NCBI GenBank assembly: GCA_013298075.1
Contig: JAAFJG010000024.1
Location: forward strand, 1 to 61,155
Length of the DNA: 61,155 nucleotides
Direction: 5' to 3'
Source of the DNA: Cytophagales bacterium
GTDB taxonomy: Bacteria > Bacteroidota > Bacteroidia > Cytophagales > Microscillaceae
The notes beneath the pieces are model-generated. The model was not told the DNA's origin. It saw only the letters and a list, made by a program, of their open reading frames with translations, and searched no databases. This document shows positions 221 to 60,937 of this stretch, piece after piece (within the stretch, counting starts at the first letter, position 1; each line of letters begins with the position of its first letter). The translations under genes were made by a program, and so were the position numbers.

Positions 221-286
221 CCCCAGCTGTGAGGGAACTAAAAATAAGTTTTTTTGAGTGGGTAGTTTATTTTTTATATGCTCCCT
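221..286 (+). repeat. Solo arm of the long inverted-repeat element (family A)
   Basis: This 66-base stretch matches the right arm of the element at 60622-60937 (compare 60872-60931) over nearly its whole length. It starts at the CCCCAGC..GTGAGGGAACT core and runs through the GGGTAGTTTATTTTTTA segment. There is no partner arm nearby, so it looks like a solo relic. Confidence 0.7.
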
Positions 287-10234: not shown

Positions 10235-11254
10235 TTAATATTCATTTCGTACTTTGGCGTATTCAATGGCTTTGTGTAATTTCTCTTTCAGCAATTCCAT
10301 TGGTGGTAAAATAGTAAGATATTCTGCCACACGAATATTACTTTTTTCTAAATCTAAGAGCTCAATATGCTCCTCATTTTTTCCACTGCAAAGAATCAAA
10401 CCAATCGGTGAATTTTCGCCATCTACTTTTTCATATTTTTCCAGATAACGCAAATAAAGTTCCATTTGTCCTTTATAACCTGCTTCAAAATCGCCCAATT
10501 TGAGGTCAAGAGCTACCAAACATTTGAGTCTTCGATGATAAAAAAGCAAGTCAATATAATAATCGGTGTGGTCTATCGTAATACGTTTTTGACGTGACAG
10601 AAAAGCAAAATCACTCCCTAATTCAATCAAGAAACGTTGCAATTCGGCAAGTATAGCATTTTCCAAATCTTTTTCAGAATAAGTATCTTTTAAACCTAAA
10701 AAATCTAAGAAATAAGGGTCTTTAAAAATAAGGTCAGGGCTGATTTTTTGGGCATTTTTCAAATTTTTTAATTCGTTTTTAATTGTTTCATCAGGTTTTT
10801 TAGAAATAGCCGTTCTTTCGTATAACATAGATTTGATGCGATCTTGCAAAGTACGTGTACTCCAACGTTCTGATTTGCACATTTCCAAATAAAATTCTCG
10901 TTTGAGTGGCTCGCTTATATAGGCAATTTGTCTAAAATGTGTCCAACTTAATTTTCCACTCAATGCGTGGAAAATGTTTTCATCTTCAAACACCTCAAAT
11001 ACTTTCATTGCATTGAATAAATTACTTTTATTGTAACCCTTGCCATATTTTGTGATTAGAGTTTTACTTACTATTTCGATAAATTTTTGTCCATAATCAG
11101 CTTTTTGATTTTGCAAAAGTACTCCTTTTATCTCTTTTCCTATATGCCAATATAGGTTACTCATAATTGTATTCACGCTCAAAGCTACCTGATAGGTACT
11201 TTGAACAATAAGTGCTTCTATTTTTTCAAGACTTTGTTTTTCTATATTTTCCAT
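10235..11254 (-). CDS. DUF1016 (YhcG-type) PDDEXK nuclease family protein
   Basis: A 339-residue cytoplasmic protein with the two-part YhcG layout. The N-terminal DUF1016-N half (SVNTIMSNLYWHIGKEI) is followed by a C-terminal PD-(D/E)xK domain with YYIDLLFYHRRLKCL and ALDLKLGDF, where IDLLF and the D-x-K supply the predicted metal-binding residues. Members occur near restriction and mobile loci and are thought to bind or cut DNA, but their in vivo role is unsettled. It is a single gene here, with a 49-base gap to asnB upstream on the same strand. Confidence 0.9.
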   Translation of the reverse strand: MENIEKQSLEKIEALIVQSTYQVALSVNTIMSNLYWHIGKEIKGVLLQNQKADYGQKFIEIVSKTLITKYGKGYNKSNLFNAMKVFEVFEDENIFHALSGKLSWTHFRQIAYISEPLKREFYLEMCKSERWSTRTLQDRIKSMLYERTAISKKPDETIKNELKNLKNAQKISPDLIFKDPYFLDFLGLKDTYSEKDLENAILAELQRFLIELGSDFAFLSRQKRITIDHTDYYIDLLFYHRRLKCLVALDLKLGDFEAGYKGQMELYLRYLEKYEKVDGENSPIGLILCSGKNEEHIELLDLEKSNIRVAEYLTILPPMELLKEKLHKAIEYAKVRNEY

Positions 11255-11303: not shown

Positions 11304-13079
11304 CTATTCAAAATTTTGGTTAATCCATTCTGCTAAAAACCAAATTCCAAAAATTTCGTTGCTAAAATCCATTTTTTTAGTTTGATGTTTTTGCCAAATA
11401 TCATTAAAAATAGTGTATGGTAAATACTCAAAAATAATATGATTTTTAGTTAATGTATTGATAATCATTTCTTTATATTTTTTTTGTCTTATCCATTCTC
11501 CAAAAGCCATTCCAAAACCTTCTTTCTGACGATTGGCAAATTCTTGTCCGCCTTTTTGAATCAATAATTGTTTGAGCAACCATTTTTTGCCATTTTTTAG
11601 TAAAAATTTTCCTTCTATATTATCAACAAAATTAATAATTTCATTGTCCAAAAAAGGAACTCTTATTTCAATTCCTGCTAACATTCCCGCCAAATCATTT
11701 ATTTTTAGAATATCTTCACTCAAAAAATGCGTTTTTTCGTATGTTAAAGCCCATTTTAAATCATCTTTTGAGTCGATATTATTTTCTTTTTCGATAATAT
11801 TTTTTATATTCCAATGCGTTTGTGTAAAATTAATGAAAGTATTTTGCGTATTTGTATCTATTTTTTCGACTAATTTTTTCCATTTTCTTGATAAAAATTG
11901 GGTTGGAATATTTTTAAATAAATAAATCCAAGACGTACCAAATATTTTTTTTAATCGTAAATAAGTAGAAAATGCTTGATGGCGATGATACCCTGCAAAC
12001 ATTTCGTCTGCTCCTGCACCTGTCAAAACGACCTTATGCGTGTGTGAAGCCTTTTTTGATAAATGATAAGTCAATAAAAAAGCCGCATCTGCGATTGGAT
12101 TATCAATTTTTGAAACAAACGTTTGAAAATCATCTAAAATATCACTCGTAATCAAAACAGGTTCCCAATTTGCCCCGAATTTTTTGGCTGCTTTTTCTGC
12201 AAAATAAGTATCTTGCGAAACAAATTGCATCTCTTTTTTTTCGTGAATAATCGTAAAAGCCGTTGGATTTGGATAATTATTTTCTTGTAAATATGCCAAT
12301 AACAACGTAGAATCAACTCCTCCACTCAAAAAAACTCCCACAGGCACATCAGCCAAACATTGAGATAAAATAGATTTTTGTAAGATAGTATCGAGGCGTT
12401 TTATAGGATTTTTTGCCCCGCCCCAGCCCTCCCCAGAGGTGAGGGAGTTTTTTGCCTTTGTTCCCTCCCCTACGGGGAGGGTTAGGGTGGGGCAGATATT
12501 CTCAAAAAAAGTTTGATTTTTTTCTACAAATCGATTGTATAAATAAGGTAATATTTGCGAAGTATTTAATTTTTTTTCTACTAAATTAGTGGCTAAAATT
12601 CCTTTTATTTCAGAAGAAATCAATAAATAATCGTCATTTTCAAAAATATATAAAGGTTTTATGCCTAATTTATCTCTGTTAAATGTAATTTTATTCGTCA
12701 ATAAATCTATAAAAATATATGCATAAATACCGTTTAATTCGCTTTCATTTTTATTTTCTATTAAAAAATACAACAAAACTTCTGTATCAGAATGAGTTTT
12801 GAAAGTATATTTTTTGGATAATTCATCTTTTAAGACTTGATGATTATAAATTTCACCATTAAAAATCAATACAAATCTTTTATCCTCCGAAAAAAAAGGT
12901 TGATTGGCTTGTTCAGATAAATCTAAAATTTTAAGGCGATTATGACCAATATATAAATTTTGATGACAAAAAAAAGTGCTATTTTCTTTTCCTCGATGCA
13001 AAATTGCTTCGTTCATCAACAGAATAATTTTGTCATCATATTGATTTTTTTTGTCTAAAAAAAGATTGATGCCACACAT
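11304..13079 (-). CDS. asnB: Asparagine synthetase (glutamine-hydrolysing) carrying an in-frame palindromic repeat
   Basis: A 591-residue AsnB. Cys2 after the initiator Met is the class II amidotransferase nucleophile, and NGEIYNH and DTEVLLY belong to the glutaminase domain. FLSGGVDS (about 247-254) is the pyrophosphate loop of the synthetase domain. It converts aspartate, glutamine and ATP to asparagine. Between the two domains, at about residues 195-223, the usual linker containing LPPGHYL..YW is absent. In its place is a Pro/Gly/Glu-rich peptide (PTLTLPVGEGTKAKN..) encoded by a GC-rich palindrome at 12415-12495. The reading frame is intact. The change may alter the inter-domain linker or the enzyme may be impaired. 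It lies 27 bases after the BatA-domain gene, likely in one transcript. Confidence 0.9.
   Translation of the reverse strand: MCGINLFLDKKNQYDDKIILLMNEAILHRGKENSTFFCHQNLYIGHNRLKILDLSEQANQPFFSEDKRFVLIFNGEIYNHQVLKDELSKKYTFKTHSDTEVLLYFLIENKNESELNGIYAYIFIDLLTNKITFNRDKLGIKPLYIFENDDYLLISSEIKGILATNLVEKKLNTSQILPYLYNRFVEKNQTFFENICPTLTLPVGEGTKAKNSLTSGEGWGGAKNPIKRLDTILQKSILSQCLADVPVGVFLSGGVDSTLLLAYLQENNYPNPTAFTIIHEKKEMQFVSQDTYFAEKAAKKFGANWEPVLITSDILDDFQTFVSKIDNPIADAAFLLTYHLSKKASHTHKVVLTGAGADEMFAGYHRHQAFSTYLRLKKIFGTSWIYLFKNIPTQFLSRKWKKLVEKIDTNTQNTFINFTQTHWNIKNIIEKENNIDSKDDLKWALTYEKTHFLSEDILKINDLAGMLAGIEIRVPFLDNEIINFVDNIEGKFLLKNGKKWLLKQLLIQKGGQEFANRQKEGFGMAFGEWIRQKKYKEMIINTLTKNHIIFEYLPYTIFNDIWQKHQTKKMDFSNEIFGIWFLAEWINQNFE
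12415..12495. repeat. Coding palindromic repeat inside asnB (family B)
   Basis: An imperfect inverted repeat of 81 bases, strikingly GC-rich against its surroundings. The left arm GCCCCGCCCCAGCCCTCCCC pairs with the right arm GGGGAGGGTTAGGGTGGGGC. Its length is a multiple of three and it has no stop in the asnB frame. Relatives lie outside genes at 42108-42186 and as the inner ends of the arms of 60622-60937. Confidence 0.9.
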
Positions 13080-31788: not shown

Positions 31789-31872
31789 ATTTTGGCTAGA
31801 GCTAATGATTGAATTTTATGTTATCCTCCAGATAAATCTGGAGACAATTCAAAAAAAATACATTTCAAAAAA
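31789..31872 (+). repeat. REP-like palindromic element, copy 2
   Basis: This copy has TTTTGGCTAGAGCTAA, then the hairpin TCCTCCAGATAAATCTGGAG, then ACAATTCAAAAAA. It matches 44521-44602 over about 80 bases and the reverse complement of 472-550. Confidence 0.8.
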
Positions 31873-44520: not shown

Positions 44521-44602
44521 ATTTTGGTTAAAGTTAATTATTATATTTTATAGTATCCTCCAAATAAATTTGGAGACAATTCAAAAAAACATTTCAAAAA
44601 AA
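44521..44602 (+). repeat. REP-like palindromic element, copy 3
   Basis: It matches 31789-31872, with the hairpin weakened to TCCTCCAAATAAATTTGGAG. Compensating changes on both sides of the stem (CCAGAT..ATCTGG to CCAAAT..ATTTGG) suggest selection for the fold. Confidence 0.75.
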
Positions 44603-59183: not shown

Positions 59184-60623
59184 ATGAAACTACAAAAAAT
59201 ATTCGCACTTATTTTATTTTCTTATACTTATTTTTCGGTGGCTTTGGCACAATTTACAGACGCACAAAAAAACACTGTGGTCAGTTATCTTAACTATCCA
59301 AAAACAGAATATGATATAAAAATCAATTTTTATGCGTCTGCTTATACTGATTATCCCAAAGATTCTTTAGAAAATTTATCAGAAGAAATGTTATTAAAAA
59401 AAATAACAAACACCCCAAAAGATGCGTCTATTTATGCAAAATTAACTATAGAAAGGTATAAAAAACAAATTTTTGACAATAAAATAGACGAATATTACGA
59501 TAAAACCGTTCAAAATTATCAGCAGCAAATCAATGAAAATCCAACAAATATAAAAATTGTATCAGAATTTTTAGATTTTGCGGTCAATATAAAAAACGGA
59601 GAACTTATCAAAAAAATTATTGATTATGGATTACAAAACGAACCTAATAACGTTGAAATATTATTGGGGGCTACTAATTTTTATTTGAATTATGAACAAA
59701 ATTTAGATAAAGCAGATGAATATATTAGTAAAGCACTAAAATTAGATAGATATAATGCGTCTATGATTGTATTAAAATTGGGAGTCGATCAACTTAAAAC
59801 CATACAATCTATGCAAAAAAATCAAAAAGCTACGCTTGATATTTCGATAGCAGAAAATATATTCAAAGAAAAACCAAACGAAATTAAATACGAACATCTG
59901 TATCATTATGCGCGTTGTTCTCAAATTTATATTTCAATAATGTTTGATATAAGTATGGACTCCACGTTCAAATCTACAGATAATCCTTTTGATAAAGTTG
60001 TTTTAAATGAAAATGAAACAAAAGCTATCAAAGAAGCAGAATTATTTTTTCTAAAAAATATCAAAAAATCAAGTAAATATAAAGCAATAATGTTAGAAAA
60101 TTTAGGATTTTTGTCATCTATGCAAAAAAAATATAAACAATCTATCAAATTTTATGAACAATATTTTAACGAATCAAAAAATATGTCAGGTTTAGAATCT
60201 TGTATTTTGTTGTATTATGTACAAAAAAATTATAAAAAAGCTGTTGAATACACAGAAAAAAGACTTAATCAATTTGATGACCTCAAAACAAATTGTCTTT
60301 TAGTGAGATTATATCACGAAACAAAAGATAAACAAAAAAGCCAAAAGATAATTGATAAAATAAAAAATATGAAAGAGGATGCTAAAAAATCAAAAGCAGA
60401 AACATTAGCCATTTTTTATTTGATGCAAAAAAACATAAAAAATGCGAATATATATTTGAAAGATTTTGAAAATTCGAATGAAATTCAAATTTTATTGCTG
60501 CAATTAACCAAAAATGTATTAGAAAATAATAAAATCGAAGCGAAGAAAAATCTTGATATGATATTGGAACAAGACAAAAAAAATGAAAATGCATTCAAAA
60601 TAAAAAAAGTATTGCAATTTTAA
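59184..60623 (+). CDS. Secreted TPR-like protein
   Basis: A 479-residue protein with signal peptide MKLQKIFALILFSYTYFSVA and cleavage near LAQ. I reject the ATG at 59115 because it lies in the porV terminator and would hide the signal peptide. TPR-like helical pairs follow (for example LGATNFYLNYEQNLDKADEY, LENLGFLSSMQKKYKQSIKF). The stop codon lies exactly at the start of the family A element. Partner unknown. Confidence 0.85.
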   Translation: MKLQKIFALILFSYTYFSVALAQFTDAQKNTVVSYLNYPKTEYDIKINFYASAYTDYPKDSLENLSEEMLLKKITNTPKDASIYAKLTIERYKKQIFDNKIDEYYDKTVQNYQQQINENPTNIKIVSEFLDFAVNIKNGELIKKIIDYGLQNEPNNVEILLGATNFYLNYEQNLDKADEYISKALKLDRYNASMIVLKLGVDQLKTIQSMQKNQKATLDISIAENIFKEKPNEIKYEHLYHYARCSQIYISIMFDISMDSTFKSTDNPFDKVVLNENETKAIKEAELFFLKNIKKSSKYKAIMLENLGFLSSMQKKYKQSIKFYEQYFNESKNMSGLESCILLYYVQKNYKKAVEYTEKRLNQFDDLKTNCLLVRLYHETKDKQKSQKIIDKIKNMKEDAKKSKAETLAIFYLMQKNIKNANIYLKDFENSNEIQILLLQLTKNVLENNKIEAKKNLDMILEQDKKNENAFKIKKVLQF

Positions 60624-60937
60624 GGGAACATCTAAAAAATAAATTACCCACTCAAAAAAACTTATTTTTAGTTCCCTCACCGCTGGGGAGGGTTAGGGTC
60701 AGTGTTGTTAAATTCTTTTTTTTTAACAAATAAAATAGAAATTAACTTGTATAATATTCTGTAAAAAATCCATAATTTTTTGAAAATCTTATAGATTTGG
60801 CAAATTATATTTTGATTTGTAAAATAATTTACCTGACAAATATTAGAACTTAACAACACTGCCCTAACCCTCCCCAGCGGTGAGGGAACTAAAAATAGGT
60901 TTTTTTGATTGGGTAGTTTATTTTTTAGATCCGACCT
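60622..60937. repeat. Long inverted-repeat element (family A), complete copy
   Basis: About 314 bases. The arms (about 60629-60716 and 60848-60930) are near-perfect inverted copies of about 85 bases. They run from the ATCTAAAAAATAAATTACCC end through TATTTTTAGTTCCCTCACC and GCTGGGGAGGGTTAGGG to AGTGTTGTTAA. The 130-base centre has no convincing gene. The inner GGGGAGGGTTAGGG words link it to family B in asnB. Solo relics are at 221-286 and 3371-3398. Confidence 0.85.

Follow-up and report, generated by a model that had tools for sequence, protein, structure and literature searches.

An 81-nt palindrome lies in frame at the domain junction of an asparagine synthetase (AsnB) gene of a Cytophagales bacterium, and in the LeuRS of the same genome matching arms, in the same order, enclose an in-frame DUF559 nuclease domain. 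Comparable cassettes recur across Bacteroidota. We propose, with a probability of roughly 0.6, that the AsnB palindrome represents a non-splicing in-frame homing cassette of this phylum in a short form lacking the nuclease.

An in-frame palindrome at the AsnB domain junction

The window (the whole stretch of 61,155 nt that was analysed) comes from a draft genome of 4.71 Mb in 153 contigs. Its asnB-type gene (11304..13079, minus strand) encodes 591 amino acids of the glutamine-hydrolysing asparagine synthase family in an intact frame (TIGR01536, 339.7 bits, cut-off 267.1). The glutamine amidotransferase domain covers residues 46-162 (12594..12944, minus strand; Pfam PF13537) and the asparagine synthase domain residues 229-585 (11325..12395, minus strand; Pfam PF00733). 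A sequence-only reading of this DNA had described a GC-rich inverted repeat of 81 bases translated at the junction of the two domains, and closer analysis bore this out. The element (12415..12495, minus strand) codes for residues 196-222, CPTLTLPVGEGTKAKNSLTSGEGWGGA, and forms one long GC-rich hairpin. Folding of positions 12405-12505 gave a z of -5.1 as DNA (plus strand) and -5.7 as RNA (minus strand), and none of 200 shuffles folded equally well. The asnB frame is open across the palindrome, as are three of the six frames of the element itself, and the linker has a GC content of 57% against 29% for the whole gene. Read on the minus strand, the element consists of a head arm (12462..12494) that reads CPTLTLPVGEG, a 15-nt unpaired hairpin loop (12447..12461) and a tail arm (12415..12451) that reads NSLTSGEGWGGA, the first 5 nt of which overlap the loop. 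At its gathering threshold Rfam matched nothing in the window, and a plasmid collection held no match to the 81-nt palindrome. A gene for a YhcG/DUF1016 PD-(D/E)XK nuclease (10235-11254, minus strand) lies 49 nt downstream of asnB.

The sequence-only reading had also asked where the peptide sits in a predicted structure. An AlphaFold model built on 20 sequences had a mean pLDDT of 76.1 (33.5 when two sequences were used), and its closest fold match was E. coli AsnB (1ct9). Residues 201-221 scored below 50 and are flanked by two better-predicted domains; a second stretch of low pLDDT comprises residues 382-437. The palindrome-coded peptide is thus predicted to be a disordered loop linking two folded domains.

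A hypervariable linker in a gene with an intact frame

The congeners G001 and G002 retain the AsnB orthologue (about 75% identity) with different linkers that contain no palindrome. The nearest named relative found is a Cytophagia bacterium MAG (RDZP01000100.1), whose AsnB is 73% identical. The palindrome-coded residues occur in none of the AsnB linkers of 18 aligned relatives, and none of these linkers contains DUF559. When linker folding was compared across 19 AsnB genes, the window's scored a z of -8.2 and the next -4.3, with the start rule giving too long a stretch in two of them (L072 and L081). From FFENI to the following LD the linker measures 32 aa in the window, 28 in G002 and 62 in G001, and those of G001 and G013 consist partly of tandem amino-acid repeats. 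The AsnB linker of relatives is therefore hypervariable, being conserved neither in length nor in sequence. That of G009, from another genus, has two translated tandem 33-nt units with a different small palindrome (L085), and no such unit was seen at the other G009 loci looked at.

As the sequence-only reading had noticed, the LPPGHYL..YW motif is missing from this linker. Its absence had been taken as an effect of the insertion, but LPPGHYL is also absent from G001 and G002, both without the palindrome. Insertion was therefore not the cause, and the loss either predates the palindrome or is independent of it. With a linker so variable, the further claim that the palindrome replaced a normal one is not established.

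This variability also bears on the idea that the palindrome is kept for a function, either through an mRNA hairpin that adjusts how the two AsnB domains are translated or fold, or through some role of the peptide. A very stable hairpin placed precisely at the domain junction would suit such an idea. Relatives, however, conserve neither the length nor the sequence of the linker, and the peptide is predicted to be disordered, which makes a retained function improbable.

A decaying pseudogene might tolerate inserts too, and in favour of this the genome contains AsnB-like paralogues and the congeners lack the insert. Yet 591 codons are open in an AT-rich genome, and the protein has kept every column that is invariant across 19 aligned rows, Cys2 and the SGGVDS motif among them. 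By codon position, identity to asnB of G002 is 79/87/65%, with third positions the most diverged. A second copy of the AsnB orthologue was not found in the genome, where the other matches are paralogues at 26-36% identity. Decay is accordingly a very improbable account of the insert. The sequence-only reading had itself named two grounds for doubt, namely relatives sharing the residues without palindromy and a second intact asnB that would expose this copy as a pseudogene; neither applies.

A dispersed repeat family with few coding copies

A search with the pattern CCCTCCCC...GGGGAGGG returned no copy beyond that of AsnB; a looser pattern then recovered the family. Allowing up to 3 mismatches, GGGGAGGGYTRGGGTGGGGC matched the genome 55 times per strand, and a reversed control did not match at all. 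We read 62 distinct clusters, drawn from 100 of the 110 places matched; clusters close to a contig end had shorter flanks to judge by. In 35 of the 62 there are two arms, with GCCCC on the inside ('+-'). The rest comprise one '+--', 23 single arms, two '+++' and one '-+'. This last, with GCCCC outermost, is AsnB alone. The LeuRS arms, which are more than 400 nt apart, were scored as two clusters, '-' and '+++'.

The sequence-only reading had stated that the family otherwise lies between genes. This is right for most of the 62 clusters, which are outside long frames. It fails for four clusters in three genes (asnB, leuS twice and a glycosyltransferase), which lie within open frames of at least 200 aa and have at least 40 aa on each side; three further clusters are near the end of an open frame of at least 200 aa. 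The search for other in-frame copies that it had suggested thus found a pair enclosing a nuclease domain in LeuRS and a half-copy in a glycosyltransferase-like protein, whose congeneric counterparts lack the insert. The head arm is read in the same frame in AsnB, LeuRS and the glycosyltransferase (CPTLTLPVGEG, CPTPALPEGEG and CPTPALPKGEG, respectively). The repeat is both dispersed in the genome and in frame in unrelated open genes, the two properties that define protein-coding palindromic repeats in the broad, RPE-like sense. The comparison with the palindromic elements of Rickettsia, which had been drawn from the AsnB copy, is in this respect supported. Searching 291 genomes of the order with a 34-aa peptide of the AsnB-like short form located two places in this genome and a doubtful one, with a stop, in G509.

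Could the palindrome be an ordinary insertion of the REP or MITE kind, mobilized by a different enzyme such as a REP-associated Y1 transposase, with DUF559 genes merely using or adjoining such repeats? Several features of the family point this way. Dozens of copies lie outside long frames, against one DUF559 match in the genome, and the half-copy in the glycosyltransferase is also in frame. Moreover, the typical copy outside genes is longer (about 180-190 nt, judged by eye), its outer parts are AT-rich and its inverted ends imperfect; one such copy, when translated, had stops in five of six frames. On the other hand, the arm order in AsnB is opposite to that of the common copies and equal to that of the LeuRS cassette, and DUF559 cassettes with matched palindromic ends occur in many genera, as described below. 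We consider this explanation unlikely, while giving it real weight.

That a repeat was placed inside asnB by an assembly error is suggested by the draft state of a repeat-rich genome. However, the element keeps the frame exactly, is identical to no other copy listed (the best being 95% over 42 nt) and does not share its arm order with any of the other 61 clusters read. Such an error is highly improbable.

Elsewhere in the window, the family is represented by a partial copy (221..286, plus strand) and by an unstranded intergenic copy (60621..60937) whose arms are separated by another repeat. A second MITE-like element, about 165 nt by eye and with ends CAGTGTTGTTAA / TTAACAACACTG (window 60697-60862), has apparently entered arms of the palindromic repeat, as seen in five copies (the window, L017, L022, L024 and L036). 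Another palindromic family, of CTCCAGATTTATCTGGAG type and with similar flanks, is found at 483-525, 31814-31856 and 44546-44588. At a locus outside the window (L014, C107), half an element with the TKAK-coding loop of AsnB apparently supplies the N-terminus of a 326-aa frame, the protein of which has a signal-peptide-like start.

The same arms enclose a nuclease domain in LeuRS

The LeuRS of this genome has outward arms as in AsnB, with an in-frame DUF559 domain between them (PF04480, 110 bits) that is the only DUF559 match in the genome. The AsnB head and tail arms agree with those of this cassette at 29/33 and 35/37 nt, in identical frame and identical outward order, and the hairpin loop of AsnB stands at the place of the nuclease frame. 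The AsnB element therefore appears to be close to what loss of the nuclease from the LeuRS cassette would leave.

This LeuRS has an uninterrupted frame of 1106 aa that contains synthetase, editing and anticodon domains, and it is the sole long LeuRS match listed for the genome. A Pfam scan (E 1e-5) of the LeuRS with the insert detected tRNA-synthetase and nuclease domains only, and no intein (Hint) domain. At the protein level the cassette is about 54% identical to those of the congeners, against 84-86% for the host. Because it is so much less similar than its host, it probably represents a separate copy or has replaced an earlier one.

DUF559 cassettes with matched ends across Bacteroidota

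The 158-aa LeuRS insert had matches in 169 of 395 Bacteroidota genomes, and about 45 of the DUF559 matches listed, counted by eye, fall in frames of at least 350 aa. Hosts, identified by eye, by similarity or, for examples, with NCBIfam/Pfam, include LeuRS (at two sites), RecG, MetH, an IcmF-like mutase, RecB/AddA-like helicases, HsdR, HsdM and other restriction-modification proteins. DUF559 is also fused to the ends of an FGAM-synthase-type amidotransferase domain, an N-formylglutamate amidohydrolase and HisF. One free-standing DUF559 gene (L158) has a 91-nt palindrome of AsnB-like anatomy on both sides. In the HsdR of G313 (L177), a GIY-YIG and a DUF559 domain both lie between HsdR domains, at residues 251-316 and 443-547. 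A phage collection yielded three records weakly matching the DUF559 insert, none of which covered 80% of it.

We asked how well the head and tail of each cassette match. Of the 61 rows of the DUF559 tree, 47 entered this test; the others were 5 free-standing genes, 4 end fusions (L137, L155, L185 and L186), the near-duplicates L135 and L188, the degenerate L210, and L179 and L224. The match between a cassette's own head and tail beat all 200 shuffles in 29 of the 47, and when tails were reassigned 2000 times, the observed mean was never attained. Against the tails of other sites, the own tail ranked in the top 5% for 24 of 47. The 18 cassettes that did not beat all shuffles include all five RecG cassettes tested. 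On a set of 30 loci, 18 beat all shuffles, one of them (L152) through AT-rich letters. Matched palindromic cassette ends thus recur in many genera. We rejected the idea that these ends always equal the dispersed repeat of the genome: the end type of the G001/G002 cassette was found in LeuRS only, and DUF559 is therefore not always accompanied by a dispersed repeat.

Inserts with and without the nuclease can occupy corresponding places. The LeuRS of G006 has a nuclease cassette at site 1 and a short palindrome-coded insert at site 2 (fold z -8.3), where other genomes carry a nuclease cassette. The site-2 insert of G018 can be aligned to DUF559, where its branch is very long, and has EIKG where others have E-x-DG, so that it has probably degenerated. 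In G009, a protein that by eye resembles an ABC-transporter ATPase has short in-frame inserts as well. A 1595-aa restriction-type protein of G007 (L223) combines a DUF559 cassette with many separate short palindrome-like peptides of the PLSRGAGGVS type. This series of short and full forms is compatible with loss of the nuclease without proving the direction; a nuclease may instead have joined a palindrome.

Site association and lateral transfer

Mapped onto the DUF559 tree (61 rows), 12 site labels needed 19 changes, compared with 43 when shuffled. RecG (98/95) and HsdR (99/93) form single clades, whereas 2 changes are required for MetH and 4 for LeuRS site 1. In G156, G317 and G311, two sites of the same genome carry cassettes of different DUF559 groups. 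The tree is based on few columns and leaves many forks open, and site and taxon are partly confounded, all RecG rows coming from one family and LeuRS site 1 from two family groups. Within these bounds, DUF559 lineages tend to be tied to their insertion site across species.

Empty and filled alleles coexist at the RecG site. Among 61 genomes of one genus, 3 are filled, 55 match in two pieces as if empty and 3 were not scorable; direct reading of 10 of these 55 gave KLWKKN-x-x-PPH as the empty site. A MITE of a DDE transposon would have terminal inverted repeats and a target-site duplication. The elements have inverted arms; no target-site duplication is evident by eye at the RecG site, and AsnB is without an alignable empty site.

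Two cassettes have spread laterally in recent time. The LeuRS cassettes of G001 and G002 differ at 6 positions in 516 nt, against at least 30 mismatches (median 48) in each of 174 other 516-nt windows of the same LeuRS pair, and none of the 38 fourfold sites compared within the cassette differs. (The LeuRS table and host tree exclude L190 and L179, in which the site motif was unmatched.) In RecG, the cassettes of G339 and G137 are identical at 443/447 nt, and the host parts at 1176/1266 and 790/849. In these two species pairs a near-identical insert in more diverged hosts shows lateral transfer, as homing predicts.

Not every comparison conforms. In 18 same-site pairs with host identity above 72%, DUF559 was more alike than the host in 2, not significantly different in 9 and less alike in 7. 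In family f13, two G043 inserts at different sites cluster with a free copy of G026. This grouping, the seven less-alike pairs and the overlap of site with taxon argue against a strict fidelity to site, and they slightly lower our confidence in the homing reading and slightly raise it in the transposase-driven alternative.

Discussion

In the homing cassette that we propose as the source of the AsnB palindrome, the full form would consist of two GC-rich inverted arms, each palindromic in itself, around a DUF559 (Vsr-like, PD-(D/E)XK) frame. The arms would code for Pro/Gly/Glu-rich linkers, making host and nuclease one polypeptide; because the arms can be translated as linkers, splicing would be unnecessary. 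From the nuclease family and the genomic pattern we infer that DUF559 cleaves alleles lacking the insert, at a fixed site in the host, and that the insert is retained in the protein; repair of the cut allele would then copy the cassette in, that is, homing. A short form could arise by loss of the nuclease, or as an arms-only element (a satellite) moved in trans, and may persist in hosts that can accommodate a loop, such as AsnB with its hypervariable linker. The AsnB copy would descend from such a cassette.

At a little under even odds, we extend this proposal to a class of non-splicing homing elements of Bacteroidota, in which DUF559 lies between read-through palindromic arms, in frame in LeuRS, RecG, MetH, IcmF-like and restriction proteins, and is kept in the mature protein. 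Loss of the nuclease would give arms-only inserts such as that of AsnB, and coding palindromes of the Rickettsia type could then be explained as remnants or satellites of nuclease-driven elements.

Homing endonucleases of the EDxHD/Vsr type were reportedly founded as a group by Dassa 2009, a paper on split genes and inteins. Another account shows a Vsr-related nuclease fold used in homing, and the enzymes described in it sit in introns (PMC12350094), whereas no splicing element was found here. VsrA of Caulobacter is a DUF559 protein, described as a Vsr-like PD-(D/E)XK nuclease and linked to DNA damage; it differs in having its own gene and a proposed role in mismatch repair, and is not an in-frame insert (PMC12907096).

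The nearest described non-splicing homing inserts that we found are the ShiLan and WHO elements. ShiLan is an in-frame readable insertion in a phage methylase with a hidden HNH endonuclease; like the cassettes here it is a homing-type insertion in a coding frame, has no splicing domain and is thought to be retained in the host protein (PMC11855218, in its available portion). Its nuclease is out of the host frame, whereas DUF559 shares the frame of the host and is inserted in housekeeping genes of bacteria; the words 'palindrom' and 'inverted repeat' were not found in the ShiLan text (PMC11855218). The yeast WHO elements share intein-like homing into a housekeeping gene (FBA1) and the lack of protein splicing, but they are intein-zinc finger fusions that replace the 3' end of the gene, and the available excerpt does not mention palindromic arms (PMC7282813).

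According to the accessible parts of two reviews, Rickettsia palindromic elements are dispersed palindromes of 105-146 bp, found in intergenic DNA and also, in frame, within conserved genes unrelated to one another, their peptide being fused into the protein (PMC10969869, PMC2229807). The present family is alike in being a dispersed palindrome, in frame in unrelated conserved genes as well as intergenic. It differs in phylum, in length (about 80 nt here) and in having arms that also enclose a nuclease domain, of which those parts make no mention for RPEs (PMC10969869, PMC2229807). As an in-frame palindrome, the AsnB element belongs broadly with RPE-like elements. In the literature searched, no paper joined DUF559 with palindromes or in-frame insertion in its title or the start of its abstract; subscription papers were largely outside this scope, so this is no proof of absence.

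How coding palindromes enter conserved genes has been an open question since they were described in Rickettsia, reportedly in 2000; they are also said to occur in Wolbachia and Methanocaldococcus. Their entry now becomes testable, because the same arms are found with and without a nuclease, insertion sites recur and sister species carry empty alleles. If the proposal is true, these elements would be selfish DNA that needs no splicing, their ends being harmless linkers, and they would account for the long, DUF559-bearing housekeeping enzymes in Bacteroidota genomes.
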